A stretch of 64,000 bases of DNA from Capsaspora owczarzaki ATCC 30864 (taxonomy: Eukaryota > Opisthokonta > Filasterea), in assembly GCF_000151315.2 (NCBI RefSeq), contig NW_011887308.1:557067-621066 (forward strand), read 5' to 3'. Positions 39,597 to 64,000 of the stretch are shown one piece after another. The stretch's first letter is position 1, and each line of letters starts with the position of its first letter. The notes under the pieces were generated by a model, which did no database searches, had not been told where the DNA came from, and saw nothing but the letters and a program-made list of their open reading frames with translations. A program made the position numbers and the translations under genes.

Positions 39597-41501
39597 ATGA
39601 ACTACCGGCACATTCTCGTCGTGCTGGTGGTGTTTCTCATTGTGTTTGAGGGAGGTTATTTGATCTACTCGCAACACGGCGGGACATCGAGCTCGGAGGG
39701 CGAACGCTCGCCCGAAGCCGACATCCCACGCGCTCAGCTTCCGCTCAGCACCAGTCTCAAGCGCTGCATGGATATTGAAACACACATTCGCGTACTTGAA
39801 ACCACGTTTGCGTCATCTCAAGCCATCGCTGCGGCGATTCATGCCGCGACTGCCCTCAAGAAGACCGAAGCCCTGACCGCGTTAGTGGCCGCCCAGCAGG
39901 CTCAACTGGAAGGCGCTTTGCAAGACGCTGGTCGCATCAAGCTGGAGCTGCAGCAGCAGACCGCTGAAGCCGAGCAGCGGGCGACCCTGCCGGACTCCAG
40001 CCGGCCAACCCCTACCTGCCCTACCTGCCCGGTCTGCCAGACCTGCCCTACCCCGGTCTGCCAGACCTGCCCTACCTCTATCTGCCAGACTTGCCCTACC
40101 TCTATCTGCCAGACTTGCCCTACCTCTATCTGCCAGACTTGCCCTACCTGCCAGACTTGCCCTACCTGCCAGATCTGCCCCATCTGCCCTGATGCCGTCT
40201 CCCTAACAACACAAGACCCTTTGCTCGACCCCGAGGTACTCTACGGCACCCTAGACTCGTTGAGCGATGACGAGGTAAATCGCTTGGGAACGGTGACAGA
40301 CCGACCTCGCGATACTCGCTGCAGCGCACGGTACGGACGCCCAGACGTGGCAATCGAGTCGGAAGTGCTGTGTGTCAACAGCGTCTTTTATCCGCACGCT
40401 CGTGGTCGCAGCGGTGTTCGCACAGACTCTCGGCCACGTCCTCATGGCGAGCCGGTCGTTCCATCTCGTTGGGACTATGTCGAAAGCAAGGACAGGATGC
40501 GCGAGCGCTTTGTGGCCCGCGCACACGAACTGTCCATCCCCAATCCGCCAGCGCCCTTTCGAACCATGTCGCAGATGATGTGCGATCCGTTCGTCGCTCG
40601 CCCACCGCGTGTCGCGTTCATTGTGACGGGTGCCTTCCGCGCGTTCTTTCAACCGCTCGTCCACCAGTCTTTGCGCCACTATGTGATGGACACCTTTGGT
40701 GGAGTGAGCACCGCCTTCTTCTTGTTGAAAGACTTTGATGTCAGTCCCTTCTCGTCGGACGTCGTCCCACCCACCGAGGAGAATCTGCACGCGGTGCTCA
40801 AGCAGTTTGCCAACAGCGGTATTACCATCGGTTCGGTACGCATCTATCTCCAGTCAGAATCTGACGTCGAGGCGATGCGGGCGGCACACCAGGCCCGCAA
40901 TGCACGAAACGAGCTTCCCAAGTATCGCCTTGTTGTCGAGAAGACGCCACCACTGATTTTGAGTACAAAGTGCAAATTCGCGCCGTTTTCCTGGCTGGCC
41001 GATCCAATCAATCTGCCGCGCTTTGTGGGACAGTTCACAGACATTCACGATTGCTACCATATGGCGCTAGATTACGAACTTGAAACAAACCAAAAGTTTG
41101 ACTGGTTTGTGCGGGTGCGCTCTGATACAGTGTTCTTCATGCCGATCGAGCCGTTCTGTCGCTACACACGATACGGGATTCATGTGCCGTGGGAGGTGGA
41201 TCAATTCGTACTTGCGCCACGAGAGTTTGCGAGTGCCTTTTTCGACCTCATCGACCACCGATATTGGAATTGCACCTTCCCGGACGGCTTCATTAACGAG
41301 GTGGACTCGGAGACAGTGACAATGAACTCCTTCACAGATCACCAACTCCAGGTGCACATGCATTACTCGTTCGTCTTTGGCGTAATGCGACGCACCGGTG
41401 CTGGCACCATGCAAGTGTTTTACGAGGCGGACGAGTACCACAGCAGTGCGCCGCCTGTCCTTGCCAGCGCCGTTGTTGAAGCTTTGCGTGCCTATGTATA
41501 G
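39597..41501 (+). CDS. Type II membrane glycosyltransferase-like protein with a Cys-rich repeat stalk (STK1)
   Basis: Single exon, 634 aa. The ATG at 39597 precedes one membrane helix at residues about 5-25 (ILVVLVVFLIVFEGGYLIY) with a tiny cytosolic tail, the layout of Golgi type II enzymes. A helical segment rich in Ala/Gln (about 60-135) is followed by a striking CPTC/QTCPTSIC tandem repeat (about 137-200). The luminal domain (about 330-634) has RVAFIVTGAFRAFF, then a long alpha/beta region and FDWFVRVRSDTVFFMPIEPF. This R-x-D motif at a strand end is placed like the metal or sugar-nucleotide site of GT-A enzymes. I do not recognise a named family; the enzymatic call is inference. Two other window proteins share the GHLR-like and R-P/S-D motifs. 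Its neighbour at 41721-43148 is convergent, 219 bp away. Confidence 0.6.
   Translation: MNYRHILVVLVVFLIVFEGGYLIYSQHGGTSSSEGERSPEADIPRAQLPLSTSLKRCMDIETHIRVLETTFASSQAIAAAIHAATALKKTEALTALVAAQQAQLEGALQDAGRIKLELQQQTAEAEQRATLPDSSRPTPTCPTCPVCQTCPTPVCQTCPTSICQTCPTSICQTCPTSICQTCPTCQTCPTCQICPICPDAVSLTTQDPLLDPEVLYGTLDSLSDDEVNRLGTVTDRPRDTRCSARYGRPDVAIESEVLCVNSVFYPHARGRSGVRTDSRPRPHGEPVVPSRWDYVESKDRMRERFVARAHELSIPNPPAPFRTMSQMMCDPFVARPPRVAFIVTGAFRAFFQPLVHQSLRHYVMDTFGGVSTAFFLLKDFDVSPFSSDVVPPTEENLHAVLKQFANSGITIGSVRIYLQSESDVEAMRAAHQARNARNELPKYRLVVEKTPPLILSTKCKFAPFSWLADPINLPRFVGQFTDIHDCYHMALDYELETNQKFDWFVRVRSDTVFFMPIEPFCRYTRYGIHVPWEVDQFVLAPREFASAFFDLIDHRYWNCTFPDGFINEVDSETVTMNSFTDHQLQVHMHYSFVFGVMRRTGAGTMQVFYEADEYHSSAPPVLASAVVEALRAYV
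40012..40190 (+). repeat. CPTC-coding tandem repeat
   Basis: Tandem 24-base-like units encoding QTCPTSIC and shorter QTCPTC variants, with CC-TACC-TGCC DNA motifs. About ten CxxC pairs are encoded in fewer than 65 codons. Confidence 0.9.
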
Positions 41502-41720
41502 TTGTTATTTTTGCTTGCCGCGCGCTCCCCTCAGTAAAAGTGCTGTGCAGCTTCCACTTTCAATCATTGTTGCCGTTTTCCACCCGACTCAGCTCACTGC
41601 GATCGTACAAGAAGTATACTGCACAAATGAAACACTCAATCAGGTAAAGCATCACTCCACCTACTCAAAGCAAGCAAAAGTTCAAAGTCCAAAAAGCGTC
41701 GTGCTCCGCGGGAACGAAAT

Positions 41721-43148
41721 CTAGACATTGCCGGCGCAAGCCGGCATGGAAAGGATGGCGCCCGAATCTCGAACAAGGTGAAAGGGAGTCTCGAGCCAGT
41801 ACAGACGCACTTTCAAAAATTGAAGTAACAAGCGTAAGTCGACCTCCGGGTAGGATTGGATGGCATAGCTGGCTGAGTTGGAAGTGCACCAGTCAACAAT
41901 ATCAACCGTGGCCAGCCTATCAAAGACTTGGCGCGTGGTGAGATAGAGGATGTCAGATATAGCTTCGGATCGCCATTTGCCTTCGTCATGATGGCAGCTG
42001 CCGAAAAAGCTGTACGGGTTGTCGACAATCGACTTGGCAATTGTGGCAAGTCTGGCAGACTCAAAGGATTGAATCACAACGTCGGGTCGTGAATGTAAAA
42101 TGAATGCGTTCTGCGGCATGGCCACACCGCCTGAAATCCTTCGAACAAGGTCGCGTGCGAGAAGGTGGGTTGCCTGCAGGCTGTAGTAGTAAGAGGGCAA
42201 CACCACGGGGTTGTTCTGGTTTGGAAAGAAAACTGGTAGCGTTGACAATCGGCCACTGCTCTTGGCTAAATCGCCATCCTCAATCATGATGACTGCATGC
42301 TGCATGAATGGATAGTTGAGATGCGCAAGAGCTTCCTCAGAGCTCTGCTTTGCGCGGTCGGGATTAGGATTGCGCCACCATACCCCATCCCCATGGTCTG
42401 TGGTCGACCAAGTATGCTGAACAATGACATAAGGCCTCTCGAGCGAATCAACAAACCGCTGAAGCTCAGGTGCCGTCTGTACAAACGTTCGCAAGTGACC
42501 AGTGAGGTACAAGAAGATGGGCGGCGATTTGAGGTCAAGGATGTGCGAAGTGTTTGCGCTCATCAACGCAGCGTCCAGTGAGTCTGATCCGGGAGAGCCA
42601 AAGGCCATGTACCGAACGCCCTGGATTGCACTGAACTTGGTTTCTGCGAGATTGTTAAAAAACCGAAACTTGGGAGTCCCGTCATCTGCGGCCTCCTCTT
42701 CCTGAGGTGAGACAACTGTAGTGGAGGGCTCTGCCTGAGGTGAGAGAGTTGCTTGGGTCGCCTCTTCCGGATGATCAATGGTATCTGTCTCAGAAGCTTG
42801 CTCAGGCGGTGTGTTTACGTCGACGGTCTCGGCAGTGGGGTCCAAGAGGCCCTGGGTTGGGAGAAGATCGGGTGATACGTCGACAGTCTCGGCAGTGGGG
42901 TCCAAGAGGCCCTGGGTTGGGAGAGGATCGGGTGAAGGTCCGTCAATCGCAGTGTTGCAGTTCAACGTAACAACGAGAGTAACGCGGTGCGCCGCTTCGA
43001 GGAGGTTCGCAGCCTCCGCCTCAGCAAAGAGACTCGGCTCTGAGATGCGGAACCTTTCGGGAAGACAGAGCACTAGCAGTCCCAGACCCACCAGAAGTGC
43101 AAACATCTTGAGCATTCGTTGGCGGCTTGAAAGGTTTGTGATGAGCAT
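41721..43148 (-). CDS. Type II membrane glycosyltransferase-like protein with an acidic Pro/Thr stalk (STK2)
   Basis: Single exon, 475 aa from the ATG at 43148. One membrane helix lies at about residues 14-31 (MFALLVGLGLLVLCLP). The stalk contains a duplicated 20-residue unit (LLPTQGLLDPTAETVDV) followed by Glu/Thr/Pro-rich sequence. The luminal domain begins about residue 205: PPIFLYLTGHLRTFVQ, HTWSTTDHGDGVWW, then NAFILHSRPDVVIQSF and, near the end, VDWCTSNSASYAI. TGHLR and SRPDV align with TGAFR/RSDT of the neighbouring STK1 protein and AGHLR/TRPDI of the protein at 62713. These motifs suggest a shared fold, possibly a Golgi glycosyltransferase. No named family was recognised, so activity is inference. 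Confidence 0.6.
   Translation of the reverse strand: MLITNLSSRQRMLKMFALLVGLGLLVLCLPERFRISEPSLFAEAEAANLLEAAHRVTLVVTLNCNTAIDGPSPDPLPTQGLLDPTAETVDVSPDLLPTQGLLDPTAETVDVNTPPEQASETDTIDHPEEATQATLSPQAEPSTTVVSPQEEEAADDGTPKFRFFNNLAETKFSAIQGVRYMAFGSPGSDSLDAALMSANTSHILDLKSPPIFLYLTGHLRTFVQTAPELQRFVDSLERPYVIVQHTWSTTDHGDGVWWRNPNPDRAKQSSEEALAHLNYPFMQHAVIMIEDGDLAKSSGRLSTLPVFFPNQNNPVVLPSYYYSLQATHLLARDLVRRISGGVAMPQNAFILHSRPDVVIQSFESARLATIAKSIVDNPYSFFGSCHHDEGKWRSEAISDILYLTTRQVFDRLATVDIVDWCTSNSASYAIQSYPEVDLRLLLQFLKVRLYWLETPFHLVRDSGAILSMPACAGNV
42819..42938 (-). repeat. Two-copy 60-bp coding tandem duplication
   Basis: The 60-base segment at 42819-42878 is repeated at 42879-42938 with only a few substitutions. 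It encodes two adjacent copies of a 20-residue stalk unit in the membrane protein above and keeps the frame. Confidence 0.95.
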
Positions 43149-43666
43149 GCGTATTCGGAGGCGCACGCCTGAGTCGCCATGTCCAACCTCGAACGACTTG
43201 TAGCCTCTTTCGAAATCGGTACTGAGATCTCCTGTGCATGAATATTTTTGCCTTAGTTTTCACGTTCCAGCCGAGTCGCGAGGGAAGCAAGCATCATTGC
43301 CAGCACCAGCGCGTTGAGACTACTTCATTTCCCCCACCCCCCCTCCACTTCTCCTAGCCGCCTGTCACGCAGACCACGCCCCGTTCCCACACGTCCCTTC
43401 TTTTGTCATTTCAATTGCTCTGTGTCGCACCCACCGACTCCGCTGCTTCCACGCAAGCAATCGCACTTCTCGCCAACAACGAACCGTTCCAGCAAAACCG
43501 CCAACTTCCATCACACAACTCAGACCCAAGCGTTTCGGAGGCGTGGCCAACAACAATGAGTTAGTTCTTTGTACTTTGATTCCGGTGCAAGTCCCGCTGC
43601 TGCATTTGGTTTGTTTGGATGTCGAAGAGATTCCAGAAGGAAAGAAAAGAAGTTTTAAAAAATAAT

Positions 43667-48874: not shown

Positions 48875-50766
48875 ATGGATGGACAGCAACACTATGGTCG
48901 CGGTCGCGTGCTCTTCCTGACGGGCATTCTCGTGCTTCTGACGCTGTACCTCCTGATGCCAACTATCAGCGAGTTTAGCAGCAATACTATCAACCTGTCC
49001 GGCGACGAGACGGAGGCAGGTGCGACCGAGCAGCAGCCCTCTGTTGAAGTGCGAGTTGGCGTAACAGGAAATGCACCACTCCCTGCTCCTGCTCCCACAG
49101 CTACTGCCGACTCGGACCCGCATTCAGAGCTGACAGGATCAAGAAACTTTGATTGTTCTACCAACGTGCTTGCTCTTGCTTCCATTGACGCTGTGGCTTC
49201 AGCCGAATCCGTGGCTTCTGTCGCGTCCATTGAGGTGGTCGTTTCCGCGGAGTCTGCTTCAATCGAGTCTGTAGCTTCAATCGCATCTGTCGCTTCCATG
49301 GAGTCTGTTGCTTCCATGGAGTCTGTCGCTTCCATGGAGTCTGTAGCTTCAATCGCATCTGTCGCTTCCATGGAGTCTGCTTCAATCGAGTCTGTAGCTT
49401 CAATCGCATCTGTCGCTTCCATGGAGTCTGTTGCTTCCATGGAGTCTGTCGCTTCCATGGAGTCTGTAGCTTCAATCGCATCTGTCGCTTCAATGGAGTC
49501 TGTTGCTTCCATGGAGTCTGTCGCTTCCATGGAGTCTGTCGCTTCCATGGAGTCTGTAGCTTCAATCGCATCTGTCGCTTCAATGGAGTCTGTTGCTTCC
49601 ATGGAGTCTGTAGCTTCAACCGCATCTGTCGCTTCAATGGAGTCTGTTGCTTCCCCTCTTGCAGCTGCTACGGCTTTTCCTGTTGTAAGCAATCGAGCGG
49701 AAGCGATCAGTTTGTTTTGCTCGGCATCTCTCACGGTCTGATTTTCGTGTTTTTTTTTTTTCTTTTTTTTTTTCTATTTTTTGTTATTTCCAACCTCCTA
49801 GCCGAACGATTGTGACGACTACTTTGTTCGGAACCGGGTCTTCCTTGTGGTCCAGTTTAACTCCGGTTGGTGGGATCATGTCGAGAAGGCCATGCTCAAC
49901 TTACCCGCGTACGCCAAAGCAGTCTTCGTCTTCCCCAAGGTCACACAAGAACAAGCCGATCGATTTCCCACAGTCCAGTTCCTTGCCTGCGAGGACGCGC
50001 TTTCCGGACTGTATCCACATACTTGTCTGGCCGATATCATGGCAGCAAACCCAGGGTACACTGGCTTCATGTTTGTTCACTTTGATGTTTACTTCAAGCA
50101 TTGGCTGGCACACGACCTACCGCTTCATGATGTTTGGGTTCCCCTTCCGGGTGCAGAGGGCACGGATCGGGCATACATGCCACCTTGGTCCTGGTGGGGT
50201 ACACATCACGGTCTTCAAGGGCTGGACAATACTCTGAATGCGGTTGTGCAGGCTTGCGCTTCCCCGGAAACAAGCCAATTTGAATGTCAACCAAGGCTTG
50301 CAAAGCAAGTCGAGGCCCTTCTGCCCGGGCGTTACTTTGGCAGTGGCTTTAGCGATATCGCCTACATTCCTGGCGTCTACGCGGCTGAATTTAGTAAGGC
50401 AGTTTGCTTGATTGTCCTGTGTATGTGTGTGCTCTGACCATATTTTCTCTCACAGAATATCTGGCACAAGTTACAAAGACACACCGGCTGATTTCCGAAA
50501 TCTTCTTTGATATGTTCGCACGAATTGTCGACATTGATCCAGATGCGCCGGCGCCGCTAATCTCGGCGTCCTATTCGCGCTGGAGTCGTTTCATCTTGCC
50601 AGGCGTGAGCGAGCTTGATGAATCTCCATCTGGGATTGCCGGGCTGCTTTCGCGATGCAATGACCCAACTCAATTGTTCTGTCATCGTGCGGACTTTCGA
50701 CACGAAATCTGGGTTGAGCGATACACGCAATCACTCAGGCAATGCAGAGATATACTTACTCCGTGA
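48875..50766 (+). CDS. Type II membrane protein with SVAS-repeat stalk and glycosyltransferase-like domain (STK3)
   Basis: Three exons sum to 1764 nt (587 aa): 48875-49735, 49802-50393, 50456-50766. One membrane helix lies near residues 11-31 (VLFLTGILVLLTLYLLMP). The stalk (about 105-262) is a near-perfect six-residue tandem repeat, ASMESV alternating with ASIASV. The second and third exons encode the luminal domain: CDDYFVRNRVFLVVQFNS, an acceptor-like region PGYTGFMFVHFDVYFKHW, then YMPPWSWWG, FGSGFSDIAYIPG and SRWSRFILPG. The HFD in a hydrophobic strand could be the DxD-type site of a GT-A enzyme. It lacks the GHLR and RPD motifs of the other three stalked proteins, so it is a different family on the same plan. 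Function is inference. Confidence 0.6.
49190..49660 (+). repeat. 18-bp minisatellite coding (ASMESV/ASIASV)n
   Basis: About 26 tandem 18-base units, for example GCTTCCATGGAGTCTGTT, with higher-order alternation of MES and IAS versions. It encodes the extracytoplasmic stalk of the membrane protein at 48875. The high identity between units implies recent expansion. Confidence 0.95.
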
Positions 50767-62712: not shown

Positions 62713-64000
62713 ATGGAGCGCAAGAGCTGCCTACGCACGGGAGTTGTCTTCCTTGTGATTGCCGCGCTGCTGGCCAACTTGGTTGTGCTGATGCAGCAGC
62801 AGAAGGCAGAGGCGCAACAGCATGTGATCGAAGATGAGGCCAAACCGGCCAATCTCGTCGCAGCGGAGGAGCAGGCTCGGCTGGCAGCCATCGCCGAGCT
62901 CGAGGCCGCCAAGATCCAGCTGCAAGACGCCACCGCCAAGCGCGCGGAGCTGGAGAGCGCGGCGATAGTGGCAAAGAACCAGGTGGAGGACGCTCAGAAG
63001 GCACTCCTCGCAATGCAGACCGAGCTGAGTGCTGCCACGCAGCGCGCCAACGACGCCCAGAAGCTGCTGGAGCAGCGGAACGGCGAGCTGTTCACCTTAC
63101 AAACCTCAACGAGCGAGCTTGAGAGGCAAGCCAAGGCTGCTGCGCTCCAAACCATCGAGTCGCTTCAAAAAGAACTCGATGCGGCAAAGCTCGAATCGGA
63201 CAGCATTCGAACGCAGCTGGATGCAGCAAAGCTCGAGCTTGAGAAACAGCCCACGGGAGGCGTTGCCACACCGGTGTCGCAACCCGAAACGCACCCGTTG
63301 GCTGGCTACTTCCAGGACATGGCTGCTGTCGCGCGCATCTTCATGTCCACGCCCAAGCCCGAGCAGCTGGCCAAGGATGCACCTCGCGTCTTTATCGAGT
63401 TGGCTGGCCACTTGCGCTCGCAATCCAAAAACCTGGTCAACTTTGCTTCCCTTGTCGAGTCATTCCAGCGCCAAGGGGCGAACGTTTTTCTGAGCGAGTA
63501 CACCTGGACTCTCATCGACGACAATCAAGCCAAAACTTGGTGGAAAGGGGATCCAGCCGGCTACGTCGAGGGGCAAACCGCACGGTATGGACAACCTGTG
63601 GATATCATTCGTGAGCAGATCGAACCCGAGCTTGCTCGTCTCCATGTGCCCTATCTGATCGTCGTGGGCCAATCTGGCGAAGAGCGAGGCGATGCACCAT
63701 TCAACCGTCTTCGCAGTTGGATTGGCGCTCACCGGGCCACCAACAAACTGGCCAAAGCGCTGAACATGAGCGAGCCGCGTCCAGACGATATTTTGATCTT
63801 CACGCGTCCAGACATCTTGCTCGACTCTAGTATTGACCTCAGCACTCTCGCTCCCTACTTTCAGCGCAATCCAATGACGGCATTTGTTCTGGGGCATGTT
63901 CCCAACCAACCAGTAAGACGACTTTGGTTTTTCGTTCGTTTTGCCTTGTCACGGGAGAAATTCTCTCATTTTGGCGAGGGCACACATACTTGTAGGGATC
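62713..64000 (+). CDS. Type II membrane glycosyltransferase-like protein with coiled-coil stalk (STK4, 3' end outside window)
   Basis: Exon 1 runs from the ATG at 62713 to 63912, 400 codons without a stop, then a GTAAGA donor; the gene continues past the window end. A membrane helix occupies residues about 9-26 (TGVVFLVIAALLANLVVL). A long heptad stalk (about 30-190: ARLAAIAELEAAKIQL, AELESAAIVAKNQVEDAQK) follows. The luminal domain begins near residue 205. It contains APRVFIELAGHLRSQSKNL (AGHLR near 230), VFLSEYTWTLIDD, WWKGDP, PYLIVVGQSG and DDILIFTRPDILLDSSIDL (RPD near 363). The GHLR motif, an aromatic TW followed by WW, and RPD parallel the proteins at 39597 and 41721. This indicates a shared family; glycosyl transfer is inference. 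Confidence 0.65.
   Translation, partial: MERKSCLRTGVVFLVIAALLANLVVLMQQQKAEAQQHVIEDEAKPANLVAAEEQARLAAIAELEAAKIQLQDATAKRAELESAAIVAKNQVEDAQKALLAMQTELSAATQRANDAQKLLEQRNGELFTLQTSTSELERQAKAAALQTIESLQKELDAAKLESDSIRTQLDAAKLELEKQPTGGVATPVSQPETHPLAGYFQDMAAVARIFMSTPKPEQLAKDAPRVFIELAGHLRSQSKNLVNFASLVESFQRQGANVFLSEYTWTLIDDNQAKTWWKGDPAGYVEGQTARYGQPVDIIREQIEPELARLHVPYLIVVGQSGEERGDAPFNRLRSWIGAHRATNKLAKALNMSEPRPDDILIFTRPDILLDSSIDLSTLAPYFQRNPMTAFVLGHVPNQPVRRLWFFVRFALSREKFSHFGEGTHTCRD

Follow-up and report, generated by a model that had tools for sequence, protein, structure and literature searches.

We analyzed a 64,000-nucleotide stretch of nuclear DNA from Capsaspora owczarzaki (the window; positions 557067 to 621066 of a contig labelled C17), an intron-bearing eukaryotic genome, and found that two of its genes, P0003 and P0002, are members of a paralogous family of at least ten genes. 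The members combine a single N-terminal hydrophobic helix, a stalk and a C-terminal head with invariant motifs, and they are probably Golgi glycosyltransferases. The family is apparently lineage-specific, having been found in Capsaspora only so far. We consider a third gene of like layout, P0001, to encode, with similar probability, a second, separately recognizable enzyme from a DUF7796-like group. In the following, L-numbers denote loci and C-numbers contigs of the same genome.

The genome was searched with P0003, P0002, L022, L020 and L021, and at least 10 family genes were located at six neighborhoods; the counts from genome searches are lower bounds throughout. P0003, L019, L020 and L021 constitute group B, and P0002, L023a, L023b, L024 and L025 constitute group C, with L022 intermediate. 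Direct sequence links between groups B and C were weak (E 0.015). However, L022 matched the first exons of group C (E 7e-18 to 5e-14) as well as two group B genes (E 8e-4 and 1.3e-3), and profile comparisons of the heads were significant (B with C, E 3e-12; C with L022, E 4e-31; B with L022, E 1.3e-7). We accordingly concluded that groups B and C form one family. In an alignment of nine heads, which omits L025 as a near copy of L024, the residues G58, H59, R61, W88, W98, L115, R141, R195, P196, D197, T245 and R301 were invariant, and the family signature comprises G-H-x-R, two tryptophans and R-P-D. A single N-terminal hydrophobic helix was predicted in 10 of 12 models; in the remaining two, the helix was present in the deposited model (L019) or fell only below the threshold (L023a). 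In the ATG-started models of L020 and L021, the helix begins at residues 63 and 110, respectively. The L024 and L025 genes, the heads of which are 97.7% identical on separate contigs (C15 and C8; synonymous divergence, dS, 0.05), appear to stem from a recent duplication into a new location.

The initial annotation of this DNA had assigned the heads of P0001, P0003 and P0002 to one family, which was confirmed for P0002 and P0003 but not for P0001, which groups with L026 and L028. Comparisons of the P0001 group with group B, group C and L022 using hhalign revealed no significant relation (E 0.13, 0.2 and 0.18, respectively). As no profile comparison joins the P0001 group to the others, a single family for all three heads was rejected as unproven, and the shared motif order would thus reflect ancient shared ancestry or else features typical of enzymes of this kind. 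At E 10, the P0001 head recovered from the genome only itself and its paralogue L026 (81%), with two candidates scored. L028 was found through the DUF7796 profile, then spliced, and is related to the P0001 group by BLASTP (48.9 bits to P0001 and 54.3 bits to L026; E 4e-10 and 7e-12 in a database of only 12 sequences), with which it shares G-x-x-R, L-D-Y-E, K-F-D-W-x-V-R-x-R-x-D and Q-F-x-L-x-P-R. The Pfam profile PF25072 (DUF7796) matched P0001 (18 bits, E 0.0015), L028 (19.7 bits, E 0.00043) and L027 (26.6 bits, E 3.4e-6) near the R-x-D strand, in each case below the curated cut-off of 27 bits and across 53–67 of 346 profile positions; L026 also matched, no better than P0001. This profile recognized three places in the genome, none above the cut-off, and none of the nine heads of the ten-gene family. 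The L027 locus (C17:683823–684002), 0.4 bits below the cut-off, carries an SGQYRT...KSRFDL pattern. Both proteins of the P0001 pair were weakly similar to phrog_13607, a PHROGs entry without a name (best E 0.0034).

There is nevertheless a sizeable chance, if somewhat short of even, that all three heads, including that of P0001, derive from one R-x-D glycosyltransferase superfamily that holds DUF7796, the sequence signal having faded. The three heads have the same motif order, and a pattern of this order, written post hoc, gave three matches in six-frame stretches of at least 150 amino acids in the window (matching frames not recorded); over 500 residue shuffles it matched 0.002 times on average and never more than once. 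The motifs are 134–164 residues apart (164 between TGAFR and RSDT in P0001), compared with the 140–165 given previously. Moreover, hhalign placed R-P-D and R-S-D in register against both the nine-head profile and L022, and P0001, L028 and L027 match DUF7796 at the R-x-D strand itself. However, besides the insignificant E-values above, other parts aligned in the comparison with group C, and the P0001 pair alone aligned at the first strand only (E 0.35). The real profile scored 21.2 and a reversed one 20.0; of 200 column shuffles, 4 attained 21.2 (two of them, at 135 and 137.5, were taken for parsing faults).

No credible relative of the ten-gene family was found in Pfam, NCBIfam, PHROGs or solved structures. 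For this family and the libraries searched, the result agrees with the earlier statement that no named family with these motifs was known; P0001 leans to DUF7796. Four matches of the nine-head profile to PDB sequences (E 0.24–0.53; a tail nozzle and ketol-acid reductoisomerases) were taken for chance. We also conducted protein searches among candidates that share 5-residue words with the query and have 0.55–1.75 times its length, scoring the best-sharing 7997 candidates for the P0003 and P0001 queries and 6827 for the nine-head alignment. The P0003 query returned three proteins, P0001 one and the nine-head alignment, up to E 10, five, all from Capsaspora. The nine-head search missed deposited proteins of the same genome (L020, L021, L022, L023a and P0002), some of them too long for it, and the P0001 search did not return P0001 itself. 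Because members within the same genome were missed, absence outside Capsaspora is unproven. Nothing was found in viral contigs with the P0001 pair, the P0003 head, group C or P0009 (the deposited protein of L025), in prokaryote contigs with the P0001 head and group C only, or in plasmids with the P0001 head only. Two phage records matching the P0001 head (E 0.2 and 2) were dropped because they were antisense to annotated genes, and one matching the P0003 head (E 4) was not counted credible. The ten-gene family was not named in the titles or abstract openings of the literature searched (one library).

The proposal that the family consists of glycosyltransferases is based on its type II architecture, on an R-x-D following a strand, and on the presence of GT7- and GT32-type neighbors above chance. 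Glycosyltransferase genes adjoin the family at three of the six neighborhoods. The next open frame past P0002, approximately 0.4 kb beyond its inferred stop, encodes a galactosyltransferase of the GT7 type (L018:2443–3603; Pfam Glyco_transf_7C, E 1.7e-21), and two GT32-type genes lie on C8 between L020 and L025 (both by genome search, one also by Pfam); we take PF02709 to be GT7 and PF04488 to be GT32. Genome searches detected at least seven GT7-type and at least three GT32-type sites, and two of each lie within 10 kb of a family gene, which is more often than chance in a test that was partly post hoc and for which gene places were entered by hand from search results. The GT7 site on C15 was not known before this test. 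The locus there, L057 (C15:490500–496500), contains two GT7-like frames on opposite strands (by eye); the leading gene of the C15 trio is approximately 3–6 kb away.

From these features we infer a fold, topology, Golgi location, catalysis and substrate for the family. The N-terminal tail and helix would anchor the enzyme, with the stalk as a spacer, and the luminal head would bind a nucleotide sugar. The nucleotide-binding half of the head may open with the G-H-x-R strand, which comes first, and the D-x-D metal/nucleotide-sugar motif may be replaced by the invariant R-P-D that closes a later strand. The family would act with its GT7-type (beta-1,4-galactosyltransferase-like) and GT32-type neighbors to build a cell-surface glycan. 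Capsaspora lives in a snail host, and its multicellularity arises by aggregation. As a tentative and rather doubtful extension, the genes might be glycosyltransferases private to Capsaspora or filastereans, using R-P-D for D-x-D and expanded beside GT7 and GT32 genes, that build a species-specific surface glycan for aggregation or life in the snail.

AlphaFold models of the heads were poor (P0003, from 5 sequences: predicted local distance difference test score, pLDDT, 37.6 and predicted template modeling score, pTM, 0.36; P0001, from 2 sequences: pLDDT 38.3 and pTM 0.34). In the P0003 model, the invariant R-P-D follows a strand. The first 20 rows of its re-alignment comprised 11 GT-A-domain proteins, 8 glucose-6-phosphate dehydrogenases and 1 haloacid dehalogenase (HAD) phosphatase, all at Z < 8; given the poor model and mixed rows, we gave this result little weight. 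The Foldseek comparison of the P0003 model with the PDB, those of both models with viral structures, and the P0001 re-alignment were uninformative.

Several observations weigh against a glycosyltransferase function. Up to E 10, the nine heads gave five weak Pfam matches and one weak NCBIfam match, with no glycosyltransferase family among them; at 5 kb, just one of the seven GT7 sites is near a family gene; and block duplication can explain part of the glycosyltransferase neighborhood. In addition, the stalks are fast-evolving and repeat-bearing, a one-helix architecture is no proof of Golgi residence, and the catalytic residues of the heads are putative only, all of which would also suit surface receptors, lectins, adhesins or inactive glycosyltransferase relatives. 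We regard such non-enzymes as unlikely, since R-P-D, G-H-x-R and two tryptophans are invariant across very diverged members and glycosyltransferase genes lie nearby. Least probable, and of low likelihood, are GT-B-type fucosyltransferase-like heads, in which G-H-x-R and R-P-D would correspond in order and spacing to the N-terminal G-x-x-G-N-Q segment and R-R-G-D of GT11/GT65/GT68, but the segment after R-P-D is hydrophobic and in the poor model gives way to a helix, as is the case after D-x-D, and neither Pfam nor PDB sequences yielded a match to GT11/GT65/GT68.

We further compared stalks with heads, the boundaries being set by eye. The stalk was less alike than the head in six of seven pairs (stalk and head identity): P0001/L026 (57.5% and 81.3%), P0003/P0007 (55.2% and 75.4%; the P0007 gene has a second, longer deposited model), L024/L025 (94.2% and 97.7%), L023a/L023b (22.7% and 47.8%), P0002/L023a (31.7% and 44.0%) and L023b/L024 (27.1% and 55.1%). 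The exception was P0002/L024 (40.4% across 52 residues and 38.3%). Stalk length ranged from 30 to 304 residues in the 12 models. Tandem repeats occur in the stalks of P0001 (CxxC), P0003 (a doubled 20-residue unit) and a fourth protein of the window (approximately 22 SVAS-type units), and the stalk of the L019 open reading frame contains a doubled unit longer than and different from that of P0003. We read these patterns as weak constraint on the stalks with repeat growth. The ratios of nonsynonymous to synonymous divergence (dN/dS) of the heads were approximately 0.2, 0.2 and 0.33 in three pairs, whereas a fourth was saturated; as judged from these ratios, the heads are under purifying selection in the three pairs. 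The picture of an apparently lineage-specific one-helix family with a conserved head and a freer stalk, drawn in the initial annotation, is supported by six of seven pairs and by protein searches that returned Capsaspora only. Its claim that the stalk sequences have nothing in common goes too far within families, as two close paralogue pairs keep 55–58% stalk identity, and its description of the stalks as interchangeable captures their divergence and gain of repeats but is overstated, since no swaps were seen in passing and none were specifically sought.

The features of the window are listed in Table 1. P0001 was as first described, with one open frame, an N-terminal helix, a CxxC stalk and a C-terminal motif domain. 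The frame placed at 41721–43148 is a real protein in one open frame but lies on the minus strand, the plus strand there being full of stops, and extends to 43166; the deposited CAOG_008144 (512 amino acids) is identical across the P0003 length and has 31 extra N-terminal residues. P0001 and P0003 therefore converge, and 219 bases separate their stop codons. The protein at 62713–64000 is likewise real, but the last 88 bases are 83 of inferred intron and 5 of exon 2. The intron position is common to L023a, L023b, L024 and L025; where several in-frame GT/AG pairs were possible, those nearest the usual donor were taken. The splice junction of P0009 is exactly as inferred, and the deposited P0010 (L023b) runs on into the inferred intron. 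ARAGORN called a tRNA-Ser inside the P0001 stalk (39953–40029, minus strand), which is probably false, because a scan of the window with Rfam at the gathering score found no RNA. The fourth protein is real, with its own head, as proposed previously. This head had no Pfam match; 30–33% resemblance to it was detected at three further genomic sites (C10:1059k, C24:3.5k and C24:1.0k), so the protein belongs to its own, second small family.

Table 1. Coordinates of genes and protein features in the window
Feature	Position	Strand
P0001, 634 aa in one open frame; membrane protein with a single helix and a DUF7796-like head	39597..41501	+
P0001 hydrophobic helix, residues 6–24 (best 19-residue window)	39612..39668	+
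P0001 stalk, CxxC repeats; tandem units of 24 bp and 18 bp	40010..40190	+
P0001 head, 305 aa; TGAFR 40626–40640, RSDT 41118–41129	40584..41498	+
P0003, member of ten-gene family, single open frame	41721..43166	-
P0003 hydrophobic helix	43059..43115	-
P0003 stalk, 20-residue unit in tandem duplicate (60 bp, 2.0 copies, 96% matches)	42816..42935	-
P0003 head, 316 aa; TGHLR 42489–42503, RPD 42081–42089	41724..42671	-
P0002 exon 1; helix 62737–62793, Ala/Glu/Leu/Gln-rich stalk, head from 63304	62713..63912	+
P0002 motifs; AGHLR 63403–63417, RPD 63805–63813		+
P0002 intron, 83 bases, inferred from GT..AG and equal position in four paralogues	63913..63995	+
P0002 exon 2, first 5 bases; rest beyond the window in L018	63996..64000	+
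Fourth protein; hydrophobic N-terminus, SVAS stalk, different head; separate family	48875..50766	+
Fourth protein, inferred exons	48875–49735, 49802–50393, 50456–50766	+
Fourth protein SVAS stalk, 18-bp unit x 22.3	49256–49653	+

The ten-gene family represents an unlisted candidate glycosyltransferase family for sequence databases, and, as a private and growing set of enzymes that probably make surface glycans, it provides named genes with which to test the role of glycans in self-adhesion of a close animal relative. Golgi glycosyltransferases commonly undergo lineage-specific expansion, and the stems of type II enzymes are usually poorly conserved. The family resembles type II Golgi glycosyltransferases, such as GT7 beta-1,4-galactosyltransferases, in its tail, single helix, variable stem and C-terminal head; unlike these, its heads contain no GT7 or other glycosyltransferase Pfam domain. 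P0001, L026, L028 and L027 resemble DUF7796 near the R-x-D strand but differ in their sub-cut-off scores and, for P0001, L028 and L027, in their partial coverage. Jumble of Salpingoeca rosetta, according to the excerpted account, has choanoflagellate and fungal homologues as well as a match by HHpred (E 7.5e-19) (PMC6322860), whereas neither was found for the Capsaspora family. The two are alike, by description only, in that Jumble, too, is a one-helix glycosyltransferase candidate with a weak domain hit in a close relative of animals, and S. rosetta mutants of predicted glycosyltransferases are described in the same excerpts as clumping wrongly (PMC6322860).
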